From Candidatus Latescibacterota bacterium (GTDB lineage: Bacteria > Krumholzibacteriota > Krumholzibacteriia > WVZY01), in NCBI GenBank assembly GCA_011772205.1, contig WVZY01000064.1:1-64000 (forward strand): DNA of 64,000 nt, in the 5' to 3' direction. A model generated the notes under the pieces. It did no database searches, was not told where the DNA came from, and saw only the letters and a program-made list of their open reading frames with translations. The position numbers and the translations under genes are program-made. This document shows positions 2,549 to 58,600 of the stretch, in pieces; positions within the stretch are counted from its first letter, which is position 1, and each line of letters opens with the position of its first letter.

Positions 2549-2854
2549 ATGCCGACGAAAATCGAAGCTTTTCGGAGAAAGATAAAGAGGCGGACCAAGG
2601 AGAACCGGGCGGCGTTCAATGGGAAATACCGGAAGGAGATCGAGGGCCTGTTGGGGCTTTCCCGCAAAGAAATCGATCGCATTACTCCGGGTACGACCGA
2701 TCTCGAAACCTACGATCAGTTGATTACCGTAGTTAAAGAGGCTTCAGCTGCCAACATCTCCCAGGCCGAGCTGAAGAGCCGCATTAAGGAGATGGGCGAT
2801 GTCGCCGTGAAAATTGCCACACGGGTCACAAAAATGAAGGGCTTGTTCGTTTAA
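2549..2854 (+). CDS. Small basic helical protein, unknown function
   Basis: A 101-residue protein with a strong ribosome site (AAAGGAGGG) six bases before the ATG. The first 35 residues are very basic (KIEAFRRKIKRRTKENRAAF), and the remainder is predicted helical without signal peptide or membrane segment. The basic N-terminus would suit nucleic-acid or acidic-partner binding, but no known domain is recognised. It lies 65 bases after the lipoprotein gene and 160 bases before an EEP-fold enzyme, so it may or may not share their transcript. Confidence 0.7.
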   Translation: MPTKIEAFRRKIKRRTKENRAAFNGKYRKEIEGLLGLSRKEIDRITPGTTDLETYDQLITVVKEASAANISQAELKSRIKEMGDVAVKIATRVTKMKGLFV

Positions 2855-3013
2855 GTCGGATTCAATCGTTATATCATCTCAAATCATCCAATCCGGTCTT
2901 GCCAGCAGCTTCGATCAGTCCTTCTGTGGATCAGCTCGCACGCCAATTTCTTTGAAATGAATAATTACCGAAATAACCTGCCAAGCATGCTTTGATCACG
3001 CGGAGGAAATACA

Positions 3014-3826
3014 ATGCCAAAAGCATTTTCTGTTGCATCCTGGAATGTAGAACATTTCGGAAATGATCCATCCAAGATAAGCTCAACGATAAAGTACCTG
3101 GCCGACCAGAAGGCTGATATCGTCGCAATCTACGAGGTTGCGAGCAGCAAGGTTTTCCGTCCGATTGTGAAAGCCATGCCGAAATACCAGTTTCACATCA
3201 CGGAAGGTCCCCAAACGCAGGAGATTTTAATTGGAATTCGCTATGGGGTGTCCGCCTATGTGACACAGAAGCTCGAGTTCAAGAGCGGACAGCCATCCTT
3301 GCGTCCGGGAGTTTTGGTGACAGTGAACAAAGAGGGCAAGTATTATTCTCTCCTCTTCCTCCATCTCAAGAGTCTGAGCGATCCCAAGGGATTTGGTCTC
3401 CGTGACGACATGATCAACCGCGCCTTGAAATTTCGAAAGACTCTCGATAAAGTAGCTGGTGGGACTGGGAAAGCCAACTACATTTTTCTCGGGGATCTTA
3501 ACACTATGGGACAGGAGTACCCGTATGTGGAGAACATCGATGCCGAAGCGGAGATCCGGCGGCTTGGGAGCCGAGCATCTCGCCGCAAGATGAGAATCTT
3601 GACTAAGAATTCCTCACACACGTGGTGGAACGGCCCCAGCTCCAGTTACGAGCCCGGGAATCTTGACCACGTGGTAGCAGCGAAACATCTCAAGTTCAAG
3701 CCATTCCAAGGTGCCGAGGTGGACGTGCGTGGATGGCCAAAGGAGGCAACGGATACGAAGAAAGGCCACTGGATCAGCAAATATTCCGATCACGCGCTCA
3801 TTTATTTCGAGGTTCAGCAATTATAA
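3014..3826 (+). CDS. Endonuclease/exonuclease/phosphatase (EEP) family protein
   Basis: A 270-residue enzyme of the EEP (DNase I / exonuclease III / inositol-phosphatase) fold, a metal-dependent phosphodiesterase or phosphomonoesterase. All core motifs are visible in order: WNVEHF (Asn11), Glu41 in IVAIYEV (the metal ligand), LHLKS, GDLNT with Asp161 and Asn163, NLDH with Asp218 and His219, and SDHALI with the catalytic His260. The protein is close to a bare catalytic domain and has no signal peptide, so it should act in the cytoplasm. GGAGG precedes the ATG. Substrate cannot be read from sequence: DNA, RNA, phospholipid headgroups or inositol phosphates are all possible. A calcineurin-like phosphoesterase follows two genes downstream. 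Confidence 0.88.
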   Translation: MPKAFSVASWNVEHFGNDPSKISSTIKYLADQKADIVAIYEVASSKVFRPIVKAMPKYQFHITEGPQTQEILIGIRYGVSAYVTQKLEFKSGQPSLRPGVLVTVNKEGKYYSLLFLHLKSLSDPKGFGLRDDMINRALKFRKTLDKVAGGTGKANYIFLGDLNTMGQEYPYVENIDAEAEIRRLGSRASRRKMRILTKNSSHTWWNGPSSSYEPGNLDHVVAAKHLKFKPFQGAEVDVRGWPKEATDTKKGHWISKYSDHALIYFEVQQL

Positions 3827-18929: not shown

Positions 18930-19607
18930 TCAATTATGGCTCTGCCTTCCCTCTTCCCCCAGGACGGCGTCGTAATGATACTCGATTTGGATCTTTCCGG
19001 GGCCTCCAGCTGGCTCGATCAGAACGGTGACATGAAGGCTCCTGCCACCCTCAGCCAATCGATACGTGCGGGTCATTGTGCCGCCGTTTGGCATATCCGA
19101 GCGTACAACGAGAATATCGCCCTCCCATGCCGCTTTTCGAATGATTTCGCCTTTATCCGTTTCCTGCCTCAACGGGCGTCCGTCTGTGTACAATTCGATC
19201 GCTTTGTCAGAAACGCCGACCGTCAGTTTGACATCATCCTGGGCGATATGCAGAAGCTCTTCGCCTTCCAAAAGCTCTCGCATCGCTCCTCCCATTTGCG
19301 GCCGGCCTTGCATGCCTCCACCTCGTGGTCCCATTCTCCCTCCCCGCCCGCCCATTCTTCCTCCACGACCCTCCGGCATTCCCCGGCCCGATGATCCACG
19401 CCCATGCCGCATCCTTTCCCCGGCTTGTTTCATGACCTCCTGCGGATCGTCGCTCAAGTCCTTATTCAGCTTCCATGTTCCGGACAGATTTGGCTGCGGA
19501 GTTGACGTTTCGTCCGCCGATGCAGGAGATGAGCAAAACAACAGCACCAGGCAGGCCAACAATACGGTAGCAGCTCTCGAAATAATGCATGACTTCGAAT
19601 TGTTCAT
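18930..19607 (-). CDS. Exported Gly/Met/Arg-rich protein with beta domain
   Basis: A 225-residue secreted protein. The signal peptide (about 1-32) ends at PASADE. An NLSGTWKLN lead follows, of the kind seen in lipocalin-like secreted domains. Residues about 68-105 are a low-complexity block of glycine, arginine and methionine (for example GRGGRMGGRGGRMGP). The C-terminal 110 residues look like a small beta-barrel or lipocalin-like domain (KLTVGVSDKAIELYTDG, GTMTRTYRLAEGGRSL). AAGGGGAAACG precedes the ATG. The low-complexity block recalls similar spacers in the neighbouring Spy-like and barrel proteins. Methionine/glycine-rich stretches can bind copper or silver, but that is only a suggestion here. 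Confidence 0.68.
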   Translation of the reverse strand: MNNSKSCIISRAATVLLACLVLLFCSSPASADETSTPQPNLSGTWKLNKDLSDDPQEVMKQAGERMRHGRGSSGRGMPEGRGGRMGGRGGRMGPRGGGMQGRPQMGGAMRELLEGEELLHIAQDDVKLTVGVSDKAIELYTDGRPLRQETDKGEIIRKAAWEGDILVVRSDMPNGGTMTRTYRLAEGGRSLHVTVLIEPAGGPGKIQIEYHYDAVLGEEGRQSHN

Positions 19608-19777: not shown

Positions 19778-20056
19778 TTACCAGCGTGCAAACCGCATCC
19801 TGAGCGGTTTCAACGCTTCGAGCCTGTTGATTTGCTTCTCGATGAGAATGTCTCGAATCGCAGCAATGGATTCATCTTTGAGGGTCATGAGATCCCCAAG
19901 GGCATCTTCCAGGGAAATCTCATCATCGCGGAGCGCGATAAGAACGGCCTCGCGCTTGGGTAGCGTGCCGTCTAAGACATCGGTAACGGCCGCCTTTTGC
20001 TGATCGGTGAGATCGAGCAACCGGCTGAGGACTTCAACATGGTGATCGATACGCAC
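19778..20056 (-). CDS. Spy/CpxP-like repeat fragment 3 (behind in-frame TAG)
   Basis: A 92-residue ORF starting at GTG, containing the LTxxQ-type helix LLDLTDQQKAAVTDVL and a second helix ending KQINRLEALK. It lies in the same frame as the upstream fragment; only a TAG (20069-20071) and four codons separate them. There is no good ribosome site and no signal peptide. The repeat is homologous in layout to those upstream (LTxxQxxAV...L, then a helix and IL...Q...L..LK). I read it as the C-terminal part of one three-repeat periplasmic protein that has been interrupted, unless the stop is a sequencing error. Confidence 0.6.
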   Translation of the reverse strand: MRIDHHVEVLSRLLDLTDQQKAAVTDVLDGTLPKREAVLIALRDDEISLEDALGDLMTLKDESIAAIRDILIEKQINRLEALKPLRMRFARW

Positions 20057-20068
20057 GCCAAGACGAGC

Positions 20069-20377
20069 CTACCTGCGCTCAACGAAGCCGTTTATCCGCG
20101 CTTCCTTCATCTCTTCCAGCGTCTTTAGCTGCTCTTCGCTGAGGATTGCTTCGAGTTCGCTCAACACTTGCTCCCGAAAGCTGGAAACATTTTTGCGAAG
20201 TGTTTCTCTATCGATCTCGCCTTCTCGACACTGATCCCGAAGCTCATGAACCGCATCCCTTGCCTTTGCCAGTGCTTCGGCTACTGCGGGTTGCTGCTCT
20301 TCGGTCAGATCGAGTTTATGGGAGAGCATTTGCAGCCCCTTGGCCCTTCCGCCCCGCGTGCTCCGGCGGGCTTCCAT
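20069..20377 (-). CDS. Spy/CpxP-like repeat fragment 2 (frame-shifted middle part)
   Basis: A 102-residue ORF with the classic Spy-type helix pair: KLDLTEEQQPAVAEAL and AILSEEQLKTLEEMK. It overlaps the upstream lipoprotein fragment by 73 bases in another frame (a -1 shift). Its own ATG at 20377 does have AGGAG about seven bases upstream, so independent translation is possible, but without an export signal a periplasmic chaperone fold would be stranded in the cytoplasm. A single-base deletion that broke a longer lipoprotein is the simpler explanation. Confidence 0.62.
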   Translation of the reverse strand: MEARRSTRGGRAKGLQMLSHKLDLTEEQQPAVAEALAKARDAVHELRDQCREGEIDRETLRKNVSSFREQVLSELEAILSEEQLKTLEEMKEARINGFVERR

Positions 20378-20853
20378 CCGGCGCTCCTATGTTGGGCAAG
20401 AAACTCACACATTGGGCCGATCTGATCGTCCCGCAAAACGGGCATCACATCAGCGAGAAAATCAATCAGCAATCCACCACCGCGCATTCCATGCTTCATG
20501 CCATAGCCTTCGCCAGTTCCCAATCCGAAGCCCTGGCCTTCACCCAATCGCCGACCGCCCCTGCGGGCGCGTGTTGTTGCCTGCGTTCCGGCCGCTTGAC
20601 GCCAGCGCACGAGAGCCTCTTCGACTGCTTCTACCTGACCGGGTGTTAAGTTTACTGCCGACTGGATCTCCGCAATGCTCGGAGGCGTTGCGGCAACTGC
20701 TGCGAATCCGGTCTCGGCTGGCGTCACTCCGGACAGCTCATCCGAATCAATGCAGCCCACGAACAGTGCTGGCAGGAGTCCAAGCACGGCGGCCGCCAGA
20801 GTCACCAATACTTTTGATTGGATCCGGCTGGTGAAACAGAATGCTGAACTCAT
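20305..20853 (-). CDS. Spy/CpxP-like lipoprotein, N-terminal fragment
   Basis: A lipoprotein of about 182 residues with signal peptide and lipobox LFVGC. It carries one LTxxQ-type repeat (SAVNLTPGQVEAVEEAL), a Gly-rich linker (GFGLGTGEGYGMKHGMRGGG) and the start of the next helix (MPVLRDDQIGPMCEFL). The last 24 residues (after about HRSAGWKP) look like out-of-frame sequence; shifting one frame continues smoothly into fragment 2. AAAGGAGG lies six bases before the ATG at 20853 (the GTG one codon earlier is too close). Family members (Spy, CpxP, ZraP) are periplasmic chaperones or metal-linked stress sensors controlled by the neighbouring two-component system, which fits the two genes upstream. 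Confidence 0.68.
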   Translation of the reverse strand: MSSAFCFTSRIQSKVLVTLAAAVLGLLPALFVGCIDSDELSGVTPAETGFAAVAATPPSIAEIQSAVNLTPGQVEAVEEALVRWRQAAGTQATTRARRGGRRLGEGQGFGLGTGEGYGMKHGMRGGGLLIDFLADVMPVLRDDQIGPMCEFLAQHRSAGWKPAGARGAEGPRGCKCSPINSI

Positions 20854-20942
20854 CACGTTCCTCCTTTGGACGCTCCCATAGGGGCAGGAACCGCAGGTGG
20901 CTCCTCATGAATCGGGCTCCCCTTCCAAGATGTCTTTACTGC

Positions 20943-20986
20943 TATATACGCTCAAAATTTGGCAGAAATGTGGCAGGAGCGTGGCA
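20943..20986 (-). promoter_or_regulatory. Putative response-regulator boxes and -10 of the Spy-like gene
   Basis: On the plus strand TGGCA occurs at 20960-20964, 20971-20975 and 20982-20986, an exact 11-base period (one helical turn). Read in the direction of the Spy-like gene this is TGCCA three times, and 11 bases beyond the last copy lies TATATA (20948 to 20943), a good -10 box. The last repeat thus occupies the -35 position. Tandem half-sites with 11-base period beside the -10 are typical of OmpR/PhoB-family activation. The regulator gene lies 1.5 kb upstream in the same cluster. Confidence 0.55.
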
Positions 20987-21034
20987 AATGAAGACAAACG
21001 TTGGAGGGTGGCCTCGAGGTCTTTATGGATGCAG

Positions 21035-22496
21035 TCAAGGAGCGGGGGGCTTCTCCAGCGCAGGCATATCAACAGTGATAGCCGCACCTGACGGAGAGCG
21101 GTTTTCCGCTCGACCGTCCCCGCCGTTAAGGCGGATGATCTCACGGACAATTGCCAGTCCAAGCCCGCTTCCCGGTGCGGCACGGGCGGTATCGCCTCGA
21201 TAAAAACGGTCAAACACATAAGGAAGGTCTTGTCGTGGAAAGCCCGGGCCGTCATCTCCGATCAGGAGTTTGAAGCGGCGCGGTTGGCTGTCCGAGGCCT
21301 CGGCCAAAGAAAGCATCACGTTGCCACCTGAGGGCACGTATCGCAATGCATTTGTGAGCAGGTTGTCGCTGACCTGCTCCAATCTCCTCCCGTCAGCCTC
21401 GACCCACGCCTCACCCAGAGACGACACCCACCGGAGATGAATTCCCGATTGCGAGAACCTGGCCTGAAACCGGCTCATGGTGTTCTGGCAGAGTTGAACC
21501 CAATCCAGAGGTTCTTTGAAGAGCTGGATGGCGCCCGCTTCCAACCGGGTTAGATCGAGCAGATCCTGAATGAGCAGGTCCATGCGCTTTGCTTCGTCGA
21601 GTACGTCGTTGAGGTATTGTTTGCGCTTTTCTTCGGACAGCATGATATCGGGATTTAGCAGCGTTTCGGTGTATCCCCTGATCGACGTCGACGGTGTGGC
21701 CAGTTCGTGTGAAATGTCCCCAAGAAGTTGCCGGCGCTGGCGCTCGCCCTCTTCGACATGCCGGCGCGCCGCGGCCAGGTTTTCGGTCATTCGATTGAGC
21801 TGGCTGCCCAACCGGCCGATTTCGTCCGGTCCGGGCTTCGGAACTCGGACGTCGAGGTCCTCCTCGGCAACGCGCATGGCAAGCCTTTCGAGGTCGCGGA
21901 TGCGACGAAGCAGAATGCGAAACAGAATCATGCCGGCGATCCCCGCTACAACAATAGCAATCGGAAGAAAGAGCGCGGTGGGGCGGGGAGTTCCCGGCGG
22001 GAACAGAGTCGTTCGAGCCGGCAAAGTCAGAGCAATGACGTCACCGGTCTTCTCCCCATCTGCCATGACCGGTTGCGTGGCTCTAACGCGCATCATTCGG
22101 CCTGGCCCTGCGCCGGGTGCAGCACCCCTCCCACGGCCGGACGTTTTGCCGGACACAACCCTGTCCAATCTCCGGCTTAGATTCGGCGGGATGGGTCTGT
22201 CGGCAACGACCGTTCCGTCTTGCTGGCGAAACAGCAGCATAACCGAGGGAAAATTGGAGCAGTACGACCGCAGGATCGTCTCGATCTGCGCGCTATCCAG
22301 TTGCGCTCCTTTCTCTTCGATTTCTTTCGCCACCTGACGAGTGCGCAGCTCGGCCTGAGCTCCAAGGAGGTTCAAAAATGATGGTGAGAAAAAAATTGAT
22401 CGCGATGACTTGCAAAATGGTGGCCACAATCAGCACGAGCAAGAAGGATCCGGCAAAAGTCCAGTAAAGGCTCCGCATATGAATTCGTTTTGTCAT
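21035..22496 (-). CDS. Sensor histidine kinase with apparent frameshift
   Basis: Membrane sensor kinase, partner of the adjacent response regulator. The true start is the ATG at 22496, which overlaps the regulator stop as ATGA. From there the frame gives MTKRIHMRSLYWTFAGSF and a first transmembrane helix (LLVLIVATILQVIAINFFL). The frame must then change by one base, near a seven-A run (22389-22395, plus strand) or the nearby five-A run, to continue with GAQAELRTRQVAKEIEEKG: a periplasmic domain, a second helix (IAIVVAGIAGMILFRI), HAMP, the H-box LLGDISHELATPS, the N-box NLLTNALRY, and GDDGPGFP and GSGLGLAIV of the ATPase domain. As read, no single frame encodes the whole protein; this is either a homopolymer error or a real break. 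Confidence 0.85.
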
Positions 22497-23176
22497 TCCA
22501 TTCGGGGAAAACGATAACCGGCTCCCCACACCGTTTGGATATAGATCGGCTTGGATGGTTTGGGTTCGAGCTTGCGGCGGAGCCGGCTGATCAAGCTGTC
22601 GATGGAGCGTTCGTCGACAAACCGTTCACCGCCCCAGACGTGTTCCATGAGCGCTTCGCGGCTGAAAACGCGGCCTGCTCTCGAGGCCATAAAATAGAGC
22701 AGATCAAATTCCAATGTGGTGAGCTCGATTTTATCCTCACCGCGACGCACTTCCCTGTTTCCGGGATCGATGTACAAGTCACCGCGTTCGAGAATCTCCT
22801 CACGGGTGCCGGCGGTCGATCGGCGTAGCAGCGCCCGAACACGCGCGACGAGTTCGAGAGTGCTGAAAGGTTTCGTCAAGTAGTTGTCCGCACCGATCTC
22901 GAGGCCCAAGACTTTGACGCTCTCTCCCGAACGTGCGGTCAAGAGGAGGATGGGCACGTTGCTCTCCTGGCGTATCCTGCGAGTGAGTTCGAGCCCGTCG
23001 ATGCCGGGGATCATGATATCCATCACGATGACCTCCGGACGGGTGCGTTCGAATAATTCGAGGGCGGATGCGCTCTCGCGCGCTCGATAGCACTGCATTC
23101 CGGCCGCCTCGAGGTTTTTTGCAACGAGCGCCGAGATTTTCCTGTCATCTTCGACGACGAGAACGATCGCTTTCAT
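22493..23176 (-). CDS. OmpR-family response regulator
   Basis: A 227-residue two-domain regulator. The receiver domain has the acidic pair in VVEDDRK, the phospho-acceptor Asp in VIVMDIMIPG, LLTARS and the lysine in NYLTKPF. The winged-helix DNA-binding domain includes LTTLEFDLLYFMASRAG and VWGAGYRFPR at the C-terminus. The start is placed at ATG 23176 (MKAIVLVVEDD), where the receiver domain begins; an ORF extension upstream has no family similarity. The ribosome site is weak. It is co-transcribed with the kinase (ATGA overlap) and probably controls the downstream Spy-like gene, in a Cpx- or Bae-like envelope-stress circuit. Confidence 0.93.
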   Translation of the reverse strand: MKAIVLVVEDDRKISALVAKNLEAAGMQCYRARESASALELFERTRPEVIVMDIMIPGIDGLELTRRIRQESNVPILLLTARSGESVKVLGLEIGADNYLTKPFSTLELVARVRALLRRSTAGTREEILERGDLYIDPGNREVRRGEDKIELTTLEFDLLYFMASRAGRVFSREALMEHVWGGERFVDERSIDSLISRLRRKLEPKPSKPIYIQTVWGAGYRFPRME

Positions 23177-23267
23177 AACAAGAATTTTGTGGAGGGACTT
23201 TGTTAAAGTCAAGTATGATGAACGGCTTTGAGTAAACAAGTCGTATCTTTGGCAAACAGGGCAAATT

Positions 23268-25865
23268 ATGCTAACATCGCCGTCCATGAATCGCTGCACA
23301 ACACGTAAGCTATATTTATTGCTAATAGTCTCGATGCTCCTCATGGCGACTTCCTGCGCCAAACCTCCAATGCTGTACATGGAAATTAGCAAAAACTGGC
23401 GGTTTCGCAAGGCCGGGTCCGAAGAATGGCTACCTGCGTCCGTGCCCGGATGCGTCCATGCCGACTTGCTGGACCGCGGCCGGATCGAAGATCCGTTTTA
23501 TGGGGACAATGAAAAGCGCGTTCAGTGGATTGAATACGAGGATTGGGAATACCGGGCGACGTTCGATGTGAGCAGAGAATTTATGAAAAAAAAGAACGCT
23601 GAGATTCTTTTCGAGGGATTGGATACATACGCGGATGTCTACCTCAACGATGAGCTGGTTTTGTCATCGAATAATATGTTTTGCAAATGGGACATCGAGT
23701 GCAGCGATATCCTAAAACATGGCAAGAATACGCTCGAGGTGTATTTCCATTCACCGGTAAAACGCGTCGAGGCGGCATGGGACAGCATGGAATACCGGCT
23801 CCCAGGTGGGCCAAGAGTGCTCACGAGGAAGGCAGCCTATCAATATGGTTGGGATTGGGGGCCGAGGTTTCCAACGGTGGGAATTTGGCGTCCGGCCTAT
23901 CTGCGCGCCTGGGATCAAGCGAAAATAAATAACCTCCAGATCGTCCAACACTCTGGGAGTGATGAAAAAGCGGAGCTATCCGCCATTTTCGAAATCGAAT
24001 CTTCGATCGATGACCGAGTGACTCTTTCGTTATTCGACATGGACGGCAATCGGCTGCTCGGGAGGACCGAAGCGGCGCTCCGCCTCGGAGAGAATTCGGT
24101 CACTGTTGATTTTGTGATCAAAAATCCCCTCTTATGGTGGACCAATGGACTCGGGGAAGCGCATCTCTATAACCTGCTCGGCGAATTGAGAGTCGAAAAC
24201 AACGTCGTGTCCAGAATATCCGAACGCATCGGCGTACGCACGCTCGAGCTCGTCACCGATAAGGATTCTGCGGGGGAGCAGTTTTACTTCGAGCTGAATG
24301 GCATTCCTCTATTTATAAAAGGAGCCAATTACGTGCCACAGGACAACTTCCTTCCCCGGGTTACTTCGGCTCATTACGAAAAGCTGATCCGCAATGCCGT
24401 CGATGCAAACATGAATATGCTCCGGGTGTGGGGCGGCGGGATTTACGAAAACGATATCCTTTACGATCTCTGCGACGAGAACGGAATTCTCGTTTGGCAG
24501 GATTTCATGTTCGCCAATGCGATGTACCCGGATGACTCGCTCTTCTTGGAAAATGTCGAGCGCGAAGCAGCGCAGAACGTAATCCGCCTCCGAAATCATC
24601 CGTCACTCGCGCTCTGGTGCGGAAACAACGAAATCGACGAGGCCTGGCACAATTGGGGCTGGCCGGATCAATTTGGCTATTCCGCAGAAGACTCCTCGCG
24701 GATTTGGAACAACTACAAGCAGTTGTTCCACACGCTCCTCCCCGGCATCGTCGGCGAATACGATAATCGCAGGCCCTACTGGCCTTCCTCGCCGCAGTAC
24801 GGCCGGGGTGACGAACGGAGTCTTTACGAAGGGGACTCTCATTACTGGGGCGTCTGGCACGATGCCGAGCCATATGAAATCTTCAAGGAAAAAATAGGCA
24901 GGTTCATGAGCGAATACGGATTCCAATCGTTTCCTAGATTCGAAACTCTCGAATCATTCTCACGGCCGGAAAATTGGGAGATGGATTCGGAGGTGATGCT
25001 CTCTCACCAGAAGCACCCCAGAGGAAACCAGCTCATCAGAATGTACATGGAGAGAGATTACAACATTACGGACGACTTCGATGAGTTCGTTTATTTGAGT
25101 CAGGTGCTCCAGGCCGAAGTGGTCAAAACCGGTATCGAAGCGCACCGGCGAGCGAGACCGTATTGCATGGGTACGCTGTACTGGCAGCTGAACGACTGCT
25201 GGCCGGCGATATCCTGGTCCAGCGTCGGTTACTCCGGCAGATGGAAGGCTTTGCACTACTACGTCAAGAAAGCATACAACGACATCCTGGTATCTCCAAC
25301 TGTGGACAATGGAGTTTTGAGAATTTTCGTGATCTCTGATCGGTTGATTCCTGTGAATGGGATATTGAAGCTGGAACTCCTGGACTTCTCGGGTGAGAAG
25401 CTGTGGCAGAGAAGCATAGAGTCGATCATTCAACCGAACACGAGCAAATTGTGGTTCGAAGAAAAAGTGGAAACGCTTGTTGAGGATGAAGAGAAACGCA
25501 GCGCCGTGCTCGTTGCCGAAGTAGGGACAGAAGAAGGGCAGATGTCAAGAAACCTGCAATATTTTGTGCCTCCCAAAGATCTGAATCTGCCAAAAGCCAC
25601 GATTGCAAGGAAAATCAAGCGCTACAAGGATGGATATGTGATCACACTCACGTCGGACAAATTGGCCAAGAATCTGTTTCTCAGGCTCGATGATCCGGAA
25701 GGACACTTTTCGGATAATTATTTCGATTTGCTTCCCGGAGAAACCGTCGAAGTCCTTTTCAAAGTAAAAAAGAGAATCCGCAACCTCGATGAAAAGCTGA
25801 GAATCACTTCTCTCGCAGACACCTTCGATGGATCAGTCACAACCTTAAGCCGATCCGCCTATTGA
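23268..25865 (+). CDS. GH2 beta-mannosidase, lipoprotein
   Basis: An 865-residue glycoside hydrolase of family 2, predicted to remove beta-linked mannose from the ends of manno-oligosaccharides or glycoprotein cores. An N-terminal lipoprotein signal (LLLIVSMLLMATSC) anchors it in the envelope. The GH2 sandwich carries the mannosidase signature QYGWDWGPRFPTVGIW; the barrel has WGGGIYENDILYD, the acid/base Glu455 in WCGNNEID and the nucleophile Glu549 in SEYGFQSFP. Length fits the family. ATG at 23268 has a weak AGGG site; ATG at 23286 is an alternative with no better site. It is divergent from the response-regulator gene, sharing a 90-base promoter region. Confidence 0.93.
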   Translation: MLTSPSMNRCTTRKLYLLLIVSMLLMATSCAKPPMLYMEISKNWRFRKAGSEEWLPASVPGCVHADLLDRGRIEDPFYGDNEKRVQWIEYEDWEYRATFDVSREFMKKKNAEILFEGLDTYADVYLNDELVLSSNNMFCKWDIECSDILKHGKNTLEVYFHSPVKRVEAAWDSMEYRLPGGPRVLTRKAAYQYGWDWGPRFPTVGIWRPAYLRAWDQAKINNLQIVQHSGSDEKAELSAIFEIESSIDDRVTLSLFDMDGNRLLGRTEAALRLGENSVTVDFVIKNPLLWWTNGLGEAHLYNLLGELRVENNVVSRISERIGVRTLELVTDKDSAGEQFYFELNGIPLFIKGANYVPQDNFLPRVTSAHYEKLIRNAVDANMNMLRVWGGGIYENDILYDLCDENGILVWQDFMFANAMYPDDSLFLENVEREAAQNVIRLRNHPSLALWCGNNEIDEAWHNWGWPDQFGYSAEDSSRIWNNYKQLFHTLLPGIVGEYDNRRPYWPSSPQYGRGDERSLYEGDSHYWGVWHDAEPYEIFKEKIGRFMSEYGFQSFPRFETLESFSRPENWEMDSEVMLSHQKHPRGNQLIRMYMERDYNITDDFDEFVYLSQVLQAEVVKTGIEAHRRARPYCMGTLYWQLNDCWPAISWSSVGYSGRWKALHYYVKKAYNDILVSPTVDNGVLRIFVISDRLIPVNGILKLELLDFSGEKLWQRSIESIIQPNTSKLWFEEKVETLVEDEEKRSAVLVAEVGTEEGQMSRNLQYFVPPKDLNLPKATIARKIKRYKDGYVITLTSDKLAKNLFLRLDDPEGHFSDNYFDLLPGETVEVLFKVKKRIRNLDEKLRITSLADTFDGSVTTLSRSAY

Positions 25866-55681: not shown

Positions 55682-58600
55682 CTATTTGATCAGCACCATC
55701 TTTCTCGTCTTCTTGAATTTGCCGGCCTCGATACGGTAGAAGTAGACGCCGCTGGAGACCGAGACTCCCCGGTTGTCCTTGCCATCCCACTCGACCTCGT
55801 ACCGGTTCGCCTTCTTGAGACCGTTGACGAGCGTCCGCACTCTGCGCCCCGCCACGTCATAGACCACGAGCTTCACATGACTGTTCACCGGAATCGTAAA
55901 TCCGATCGTCGTGTTCGGATTGAACGGATTGGGAAAGTTCTGCTCGAGATCGAACGTGGCAGCATAGACAACCTTGTAGGGGCCGAAAGTCTTGCCCGGC
56001 CCGTTTTCCGTCGCTTCCTCGAGCATGTAGTAGTACGTTCGGTTCGGGCGGACGGCGTCGTCCTCGAACTCGTATGAGGCGCCATCGGGCTCGCCTTTCG
56101 AAGGAATCGCCTCTTTGGTGATCTGGGTATAAGAGCCGTCCTCCTGATTTTCTGCGCGCAGGATATTGAAGCCCTCGATGTTACTCTCAGCCGTCGTGCG
56201 CCACCGGAGAATCGCAGTGCCTTTCTTGATCACTCCATCGAAGCTCGCAAGCGTGACAGAGACTGTAGATGAAATAACGAACATGTCCTGACTCATGCCC
56301 ATGCCTAGATCCGTCCCGTCCTTGTACAACGTCACCATGACCCTGCAGGAGTCGAAATGCATATCAGGGGTCTGCCATGCCACGGATCCGGCATCGGGAA
56401 TGCCGCTTGCGATCGCATACCAAGCGCTCCCGTCATCGTGCGTCCAATAGACGTCGGCCGAGTCCACTTGATAACCCACGGGAGACGCCCAGGTTACCGT
56501 GATAGTCTCTCCTATGGGGAGAATTTCACCGCCTTTCGGGAATTTGACCGTGGGGCGAATCGTCCGGATAGTGTCCTCGCCGATGAAATCCCGGGTTTTC
56601 TCTTCTCCGGAAATAGTGACCGGGACATACTCGCCCTGAGGCAAGACTGCCTGGAACAACGCCCGGTCGAACATGACCACGAGCTCTCTAATGCCGTCTT
56701 GGTCGCTGTCTACGATTTCCCACTCGTCAGGGTCAGCGGGAATCGTATCCTGCAAGAGAACCGTGCTAATATCGATGTCTTCGGCGTAGAACGGCGGAGG
56801 AAGTTCGATGCTCCCCGTCACCCATCTTCCTCGTGACCTGAGGTTGAGAGTTCTAGGAGTCACCAGGATATCCGCCGCAAGGGGTTCCAAGGAAGGGCCG
56901 GTGGCATTCAAGAACGTCACGGTCGAATCGCCGGCATTGGTGATGAGCGCCAGCCCCGAACCCGATGGATCAAACGCAATAGCCTCCGGACCCTCTCCCA
57001 CTTGTATCGAATCCACGATCGTCAACTGGACCTGAACTGGAGGAGCTGGAATCTCTGGATCGATCGCCGAAACGGAGCCGAGGATCTCGATGCTTACGAC
57101 AACCACGAGGTTCGATTCTTCCTGAACAAGGTAGAGTAGCGTTCCATCGGGATTGATTGTAAGCGACTTGTAGGATTCGCCTGCCCCTCCCAGCGAGGCA
57201 ACGACCTTGTTTTCCAGATTGCCGCTTCCGGGCTCGATATAATAGACGATCACGCTGCCCTCGGTCGTAAGAATGAACAGCAGTGTGCCGTCTGGATTTA
57301 TGGTAAGGCTTTTTGCCGCAGCGCTCGTGCCAATGGTGGCTACGACGCTGTAGCTGTAGTCATCCGCTCTGAGAACAATATAGCTATTATTGGTCCCCAC
57401 GTAGAGGCGGCTTCCGTCCGGATTGATCGTGATGCTCCTGGACGCATCTCCCGATCCGAGCGTCGCTACAACCTTGTGATAGTTCGAGCTCGCATCGTCA
57501 CTGTCAATGACATCCAGATTCTTCGTGAAATCCGAGCTTGCGTTGACGACGTACACCCGGTCTCCGAGTGGGCTCGCCACGAGATCAAGCGGGAAGTTGC
57601 CCACGATCAGCGTCGTATCGAGTTGGTGATATGTCGTGAGATCGTTCGGATCAGTGCCGATGATAGAGACACTGCTCGAATTGTAGTTGGCAACGTAGAT
57701 GAAGTTGCCTTCGGGGTGCATGTCGATGGATATGGGGTGATCGCCGACCGGTATACCATTGAGAGACGTCTCGTTGTCCACATCGATGGGAACGACCACG
57801 TTGCCTTCCGGGCTGATTGCATAGGCCATCGTGCCGTCCGGATTGATCGTGATGCTCTTTGTTGCTGTCCCCGTGCCAACGGTCGCTACGACTTCGTCCG
57901 TTACCGTACTCGTTGGCACCAATACATTGAATGGAAGCGCATTAGAAGTATCCGTCCCGACGGCCACCCGAATCGTCCCCGAAACGGCATCCTCCGGTAC
58001 CGCCGCACTGAGATAATTGATCCCGCCATCGGATGGCGTCGCTGCCCGTTCGTTGAAAAGAACAGTGTTCTGGCCTGGATCGGGATCGAAGCCGGTTCCC
58101 CCGAGCACCACCGTTACTCCGACGGTGGCACTGGGCGGACTCACCGATGCGAGCGAAAGCGGAAGTGGGCTCTCGGTGCTGAAGCTCGAGGAAGTGGGGT
58201 TCTGCAGCGGCCAACCATCGCTATCCAAGATGCTGTTCGTGAACTCGACGGTGTAAATCGTGTCCGTTTCGAGCGAGATCATCGGCGTGAGCGACACTTT
58301 CCTGAACTCATCCGTGAAGCCGAATGTGACCGGAATGGGATTGGGATACCCGTTCTTGTGCAAATAGAGGCTCGATGTATTCACCGAGGATGTGTCCACA
58401 CCCCTGCTGAACGTAGCAAGGATCGTTGTGGTGACACTCACATCCAACGCTCCGTTCAGCGGATACACGTCGACGAACTCGAGGGGAAGCGTGCCGGGAT
58501 CGACCTCTCCAGTAGCGGAGAATCCAATGGGCGAGCCGACGAGCCCCAGCGCTCGAGCTTGCACGGCCTGTGACCCCGTGACGCTTCCCAGCGTCCAGTC

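Follow-up and report, generated by a model that had tools for sequence, protein, structure and literature searches.

Direct repeats are the norm for sites bound by regulators of the OmpR/PhoB family (PMC4832192, excerpt). The E. coli pho box is usually located close to the -10 element and substitutes for the -35 region (PMC4971064, excerpt). The PhoP regulator of Mycobacterium tuberculosis recognizes TCACAGC motifs repeated in tandem, 4 bp apart (period 11), and binds three or four such motifs more tightly than two (PMC4832192, excerpt). ArcA sites often consist of three to five direct repeats with a centre distance of 11 bp (PMC3798270, excerpt). In cpx loci, cpxP is mostly divergent from the regulator–kinase operon, and CpxP damps the kinase (PMC12802237, excerpt).

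Here we analyse a 64,000-nucleotide stretch of a Candidatus Latescibacterota genome (the window), in which a regulator, a kinase, a tandem repeat and a target gene follow one another on the minus strand (Table 1). The target resembles LTXXQ proteins, the family of CpxP and Spy. On the plus strand the repeat reads as three copies of TGGCA at an exact period of 11, the nearest of them separated by 11 bases from a TATATA hexamer, which confirms the arrangement described in the earlier note. Read in the direction of the gene, the promoter is TGCCA-N6-TGCCA-N6-TGCCA-N11-TATATA, lies about 90 bp ahead of the Spy/CpxP-like gene and is aimed at its first piece. A consensus scan of the site finds no sigma70-type -35/-10 pair: the -35 hexamer is absent at the usual distance, and the hexamer 17 bp from TATATA is ACATTT.

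Table 1 Features of the locus in the window
Feature	Position	Strand	Remark
OmpR/PhoB-type response regulator (Response_reg, Trans_reg_C)	22493..23176	-	proposed binder of the boxes
Sensor histidine kinase (HAMP, HisKA, HATPase_c)	21035..22372	-	5′ part (ATG near 22478) in a different frame
Distal box TGCCA	20982..20986	-	aligned with five other sites
Middle box TGCCA	20971..20975	-	with the proximal box, best conserved of the three
Proximal box TGCCA	20960..20964	-	11 bp from the -10; among the two best-conserved boxes
-10 hexamer TATATA	20943..20948	-	spacing compared across sites; -35 hexamer absent
Target gene, first piece: signal peptide, N-terminal part of Spy/LTXXQ-like protein	20305..20856	-	ATG near 20853
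Target gene, second piece, LTXXQ-like repeat	20069..20377	-	below Pfam cut-off
Target gene, third piece, weaker LTXXQ-like repeat	19778..20056	-	frame of the second piece, past one stop codon

From base composition, an exact TGGCA triple is expected 1.3e-4 times per window. However, 7 of 150 dinucleotide shuffles of the window contain a threefold repeat of some 5-mer at period 11, and a second such triple lies within the window itself, at 57956. The bare repeat, which was noticed post hoc, is therefore only mildly surprising alone, and its significance rests on conservation. Across the whole genome the mismatch-free triple occurs once, and allowing up to two mismatches gives nine matches, against three for a reversed control pattern.

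The kinase led to the corresponding promoters in related genomes. Among 58 genomes, its best orthologues after the window genome itself (G000) are found in G002 (54% identity), G012 (53%), G016 (52%) and G019 (44%), and all four carry the same box arrangement between the kinase and the next gene. A matrix built from these five sites picked out a sixth, scoring 31.7 bits, in a 'Zixiibacteriota' MAG (locus L049), where it lies about 600 bp past the kinase and ahead of a gene for a 281-aa protein, with an LTXXQ gene next in line. A gapless alignment of the six sites, each 46 bp long, has 18 invariant columns, and in a leave-one-out comparison every site scores above all 1,905,986 background positions. 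That the repeat is a functionless product of chance, as the shuffled windows and the triple at 57956 might allow, is thus extremely improbable, since the site is kept at corresponding promoters of five class genomes and the 'Zixiibacteriota' MAG, and no background position scores as high.

Site and kinase also coincide across the class. A kinase profile run over 80 class genomes returns five matches at E ≤ 1e-140 and one weak match (G011, 2.3e-77, in a 747-aa frame), and the site model returns the same five genomes at E ≤ 5.3e-8, with a best value elsewhere of 0.037. A strong site at the orthologous place is found in exactly the five genomes that hold the kinase orthologue and in none of the other 75; as the same sites served to train the model, the five positives are non-independent, but the 75 negatives are independent. 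An 'Eisenbacteria' locus (L050) pairs a 65%-identical regulator with an LTXXQ gene and has no strong site. A degenerate CTG-type box array with period 11 lies ahead of that LTXXQ gene (1870-1920), which shows that the regulator can occur with no more than a degenerate array.

Similar boxes extend to Acidobacteriota. A scan of named genomes gave 80 kinase loci, and many Acidobacteriota regulator–kinase pairs bear boxes with GCCA or TTCA cores at period 11, placed in a divergent promoter upstream of the regulator, a gene order that differs from that of the window lineage. The divergent gene in the three loci tested against Pfam is LTXXQ-like (L106, L070) or encodes an HlyD-type adaptor (L072); the L106 target also gives weak matches to the NCBIfam models of CpxP and Spy. 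An LTXXQ gene divergent from the pair is likewise the arrangement of cpxP in E. coli (PMC12802237, excerpt). The TTCACA form of the Acidobacteriota boxes approaches the TCACAGC motif of M. tuberculosis PhoP, whereas the core in the window lineage is TGCCA, a comparison made at the level of the motifs.

Box occurrence follows the recognition helix of the regulator. In the first scoring, which dropped four loci with less than 300 bp upstream as well as loci without a regulator, 35 regulators have the helix RS[IV]D[ST][LIM]; boxes reach the score cut-off of 15.3 at 28 of them, 7 are boxless by this cut-off, and none of the 18 remaining regulators has boxes. Among controls, the cut-off is reached by none of 58 kinase-coding stretches and by 4 of 270 shuffles. 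The Acidobacteriota boxes are looser. Because the box weights had been set by hand after some of the scored loci had been seen, the test was repeated on fresh loci with weights and cut-off unchanged. For this, 40 loci were chosen from 77 listed rows before box scoring, mostly by rank and contig room, and 23 duplicates of earlier DNA and two loci without a regulator were then excluded. Boxes are present in 14 of the 15 fresh loci (controls: 0 of 75 shuffles, 1 of 15 coding stretches); all of these counts cover related, non-independent sequences and are not to be taken as probabilities. In a midpoint-rooted regulator tree of 59 rows, the 28 box-bearing regulators, the six Krumholzibacteriota-related ones (L050 included) and seven boxless relatives form one group (support 95/89), separate from the rows of Chloroflexota and Proteobacteria. 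Seven rows were left out of this tree: two duplicates, four short-upstream loci and one without a DNA-binding domain.

The distance from the last box to the -10 element is shared as well. Of the 26 sites in the first set, 15 have a -10-like hexamer, defined by at least four of six matches to TATAAT, at N11 past the last box; none of 19 other spacings yields more than three. The fresh sites behave in the same way (7 of 14 at N11, at most two at other spacings), as do the six Krumholzibacteriota-related sites (3 of 6, at most one elsewhere). The PhoB-dependent promoters of E. coli phoA (TGTCA-N11-TATAGT) and pstS (TGTCA-N11-TATTTT) have the same box-to-(-10) distance as the window, and like the window site they combine direct repeats of period 11 with a last box 11 bp from the -10. 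Their pho box occupies the -35 position (PMC4971064, excerpt), as is proposed for the boxes in the window. ArcA sites share the multiple 11-bp direct repeats (PMC3798270, excerpt), but have no fixed position relative to the promoter, whereas sites of the window type do. A regulator that binds here might instead repress, or might bind without replacing the -35; repression is possible for OmpR/PhoB regulators, ArcA being an example (PMC3798270, excerpt), and the boxes end just short of the -10. We regard this as very unlikely: the -35 hexamer is absent, and the N11 spacing equals that of the PhoB-activated phoA and pstS promoters.

The likeness to pho promoters also raises the question of which protein binds. 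Another OmpR/PhoB paralogue, for example a phosphate regulator, could occupy the boxes and place the site in a Pho-type regulon, since CTGCCAC-N4-CTGCCAC is similar to the pho box found at phoA and pstS in E. coli, and the best NCBIfam model for the window regulator is that of PhoB (TIGR02154). The match falls below the equivalog cut-off, at 226 of 296 bits, and several features set the window site apart from E. coli pho promoters, namely its TGCCA in place of TGTCA, its three boxes, and its one target with no phosphate regulon. The same box is not found at pst or other phosphate genes, the site model having one match in the genome and the region upstream of a PstS-like gene appearing blank by eye. 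Within the class, moreover, the site is confined to genomes with this kinase orthologue, and the boxes track the regulator–kinase pair through the change of gene order in Acidobacteriota. A paralogue as the binder is accordingly unlikely, and the neighbouring regulator is the preferred candidate.

The gene content recalls Cpx (CpxR, CpxA, CpxP), which likewise sets a regulator–kinase pair beside an LTXXQ-family gene. The LTXXQ partner is present at the locus: the target genes of G002, G019 and L049 match this family above the Pfam cut-off, and the pieces in the window match only below it. The regulator scores 159 bits against the CpxR model (cut-off 341) and the kinase 108 bits against CpxA (cut-off 486), and both are below all NCBIfam cut-offs among the models listed. 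The window has TGCCA-N6 boxes and not the GTAAA-N5-GTAAA described for CpxR (PMC12802237, excerpt), of which a single GTAAA was seen by eye in 20857-21034, on the minus strand and downstream of the -10; its regulon, too, comprises about one promoter. Because regulator and kinase fall below the NCBIfam cut-offs shown and the site has no CpxR box, we assign the locus to OmpR/PhoB-type promoters with boxes replacing the -35, and to neither Cpx nor Pho.

The earlier note had expected the motif in other promoters as well, forming a regulon, and this was not borne out: in the 4.1-Mb window genome the site model gives a single match at E ≤ 0.5. G000, G002 and G016 each contain one exact CTGCCA-N5-CTGCCA and G019 contains two, with one copy at this locus in every case, and none was found in G012. 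Two-box searches with at most one mismatch were run in the five genomes, and in four of them the counts are close to those of the reversed control or lower; in G000 they give 26 matches against 12, and the three one-mismatch sites inspected there (L136, L141, L156) all lie inside long ORFs. The genome of the 'Zixiibacteriota' MAG (G080) holds only its one site at E ≤ 1. With a single model match in G000 and in G080 and few exact two-box copies, the switch seems to serve its own neighbourhood alone. The earlier note had held that a lack of enrichment in other promoters would count against its reading; a private, single-promoter site appears to account for the data better than such a refutation. 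In G012, a second, two-box site lies ahead of that genome's own regulator (L048 2594-2640, E 0.0012), and its position would suggest autoregulation there. Autoregulation of the window regulator finds no such support, as no 11-bp boxes were seen upstream of 23176. A TTTGCC-N3-TTTGCC repeat of period 9 is present at 23250-23269 on the minus strand and may be due to chance.

The window regulator has both of its domains above cut-off (receiver, PF00072; Trans_reg_C, PF00486). The kinase frame breaks at 22380-22400, next to a run of seven A on the plus strand, and the G002 kinase is one open frame. In G002 a single 382-aa ORF also spans the repeats that the window splits into three pieces (19778-20856); the frame changes near 20370, and a single stop codon interrupts it near 20068. 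The first piece by itself has no Pfam match and is 34% identical to the N-terminal part of the G002 protein. The interrupted kinase and target frames may mean that the system has decayed in the window, unless they are assembly errors. Beyond the LTXXQ gene, the window (18930-19607) and G002 (L013 3824-4303) both have a small exported gene, marked by its 'SGTWxxNxxLSDDP' start and a glycine-arginine-rich stretch, so that the operon order seems to be conserved between the two. In G016 (L015, reverse complement 2704-3651) and L049 (1493-2335), the first gene past the boxes encodes a similar exported protein of 280-316 aa and is followed by the LTXXQ gene; the L049 copy has no Pfam match. This protein is an extra operon member in G016 and L049.

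The comparisons show conserved boxes, their spacing, the gene neighbourhood, the co-occurrence with the regulator–kinase pair and a site that is unique in its genome. We consider it probable, with good confidence, that the TGCCA repeat is a dedicated PhoB-style activation site for the 22493-23176 regulator at the promoter of the LTXXQ operon, in a Cpx-like loop. Weighing against this are the L050 locus with its lack of a strong site, the 7 boxless regulators that have the helix, the looser Acidobacteriota boxes with their hand-set weights, the box-free promoter of the window regulator and the interrupted frames. The earlier reading of an OmpR/PhoB-type site that replaces the -35 and is served by the adjacent regulator is upheld by the conservation, the N11 spacing, the co-occurrence with the pair and the single regulator clade, and only its regulon falls away. 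Binding, activation, the signal and LTXXQ feedback are inferred. The phosphorylated regulator would bind the repeat at the operon promoter, with its subunits arranged head to tail along the three TGCCA boxes, which are spaced by one helical turn. The boxes closest to the -10 would take the -35 place, 11 bp from the -10, and RNA polymerase would be recruited as at E. coli pho promoters. The LTXXQ product, a periplasmic protein, probably counters envelope stress, and it may also act back on the kinase in the manner of CpxP.

We found no description of the TGCCA site in the literature, judged by titles and the beginnings of abstracts, and this is our sole ground for calling it undescribed. A wider proposal, which we rate as evenly balanced, is that of an ancient, private envelope-stress switch: one regulator lineage common to Krumholzibacteriota-related phyla and Acidobacteriota would have kept tandem boxes and the N11 spacing at a neighbouring LTXXQ (or HlyD-type) operon since their common ancestor, despite the change in gene order; in these phyla the switch would be the equivalent of Cpx, its regulon comprising about one promoter. 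The site in the window is most likely a new instance, well supported, of a known type of gene switch. For a regulator from uncultured phyla, sequence alone here predicts the DNA that it recognizes, the gene that it controls and the way in which it acts. The locus also suggests that loops of the Cpx type (regulator, kinase, LTXXQ protein) with PhoB-style promoters extend beyond Proteobacteria. Matching recognition helices to their boxes throughout the clade could aid in deciphering the specificity of OmpR/PhoB regulators.
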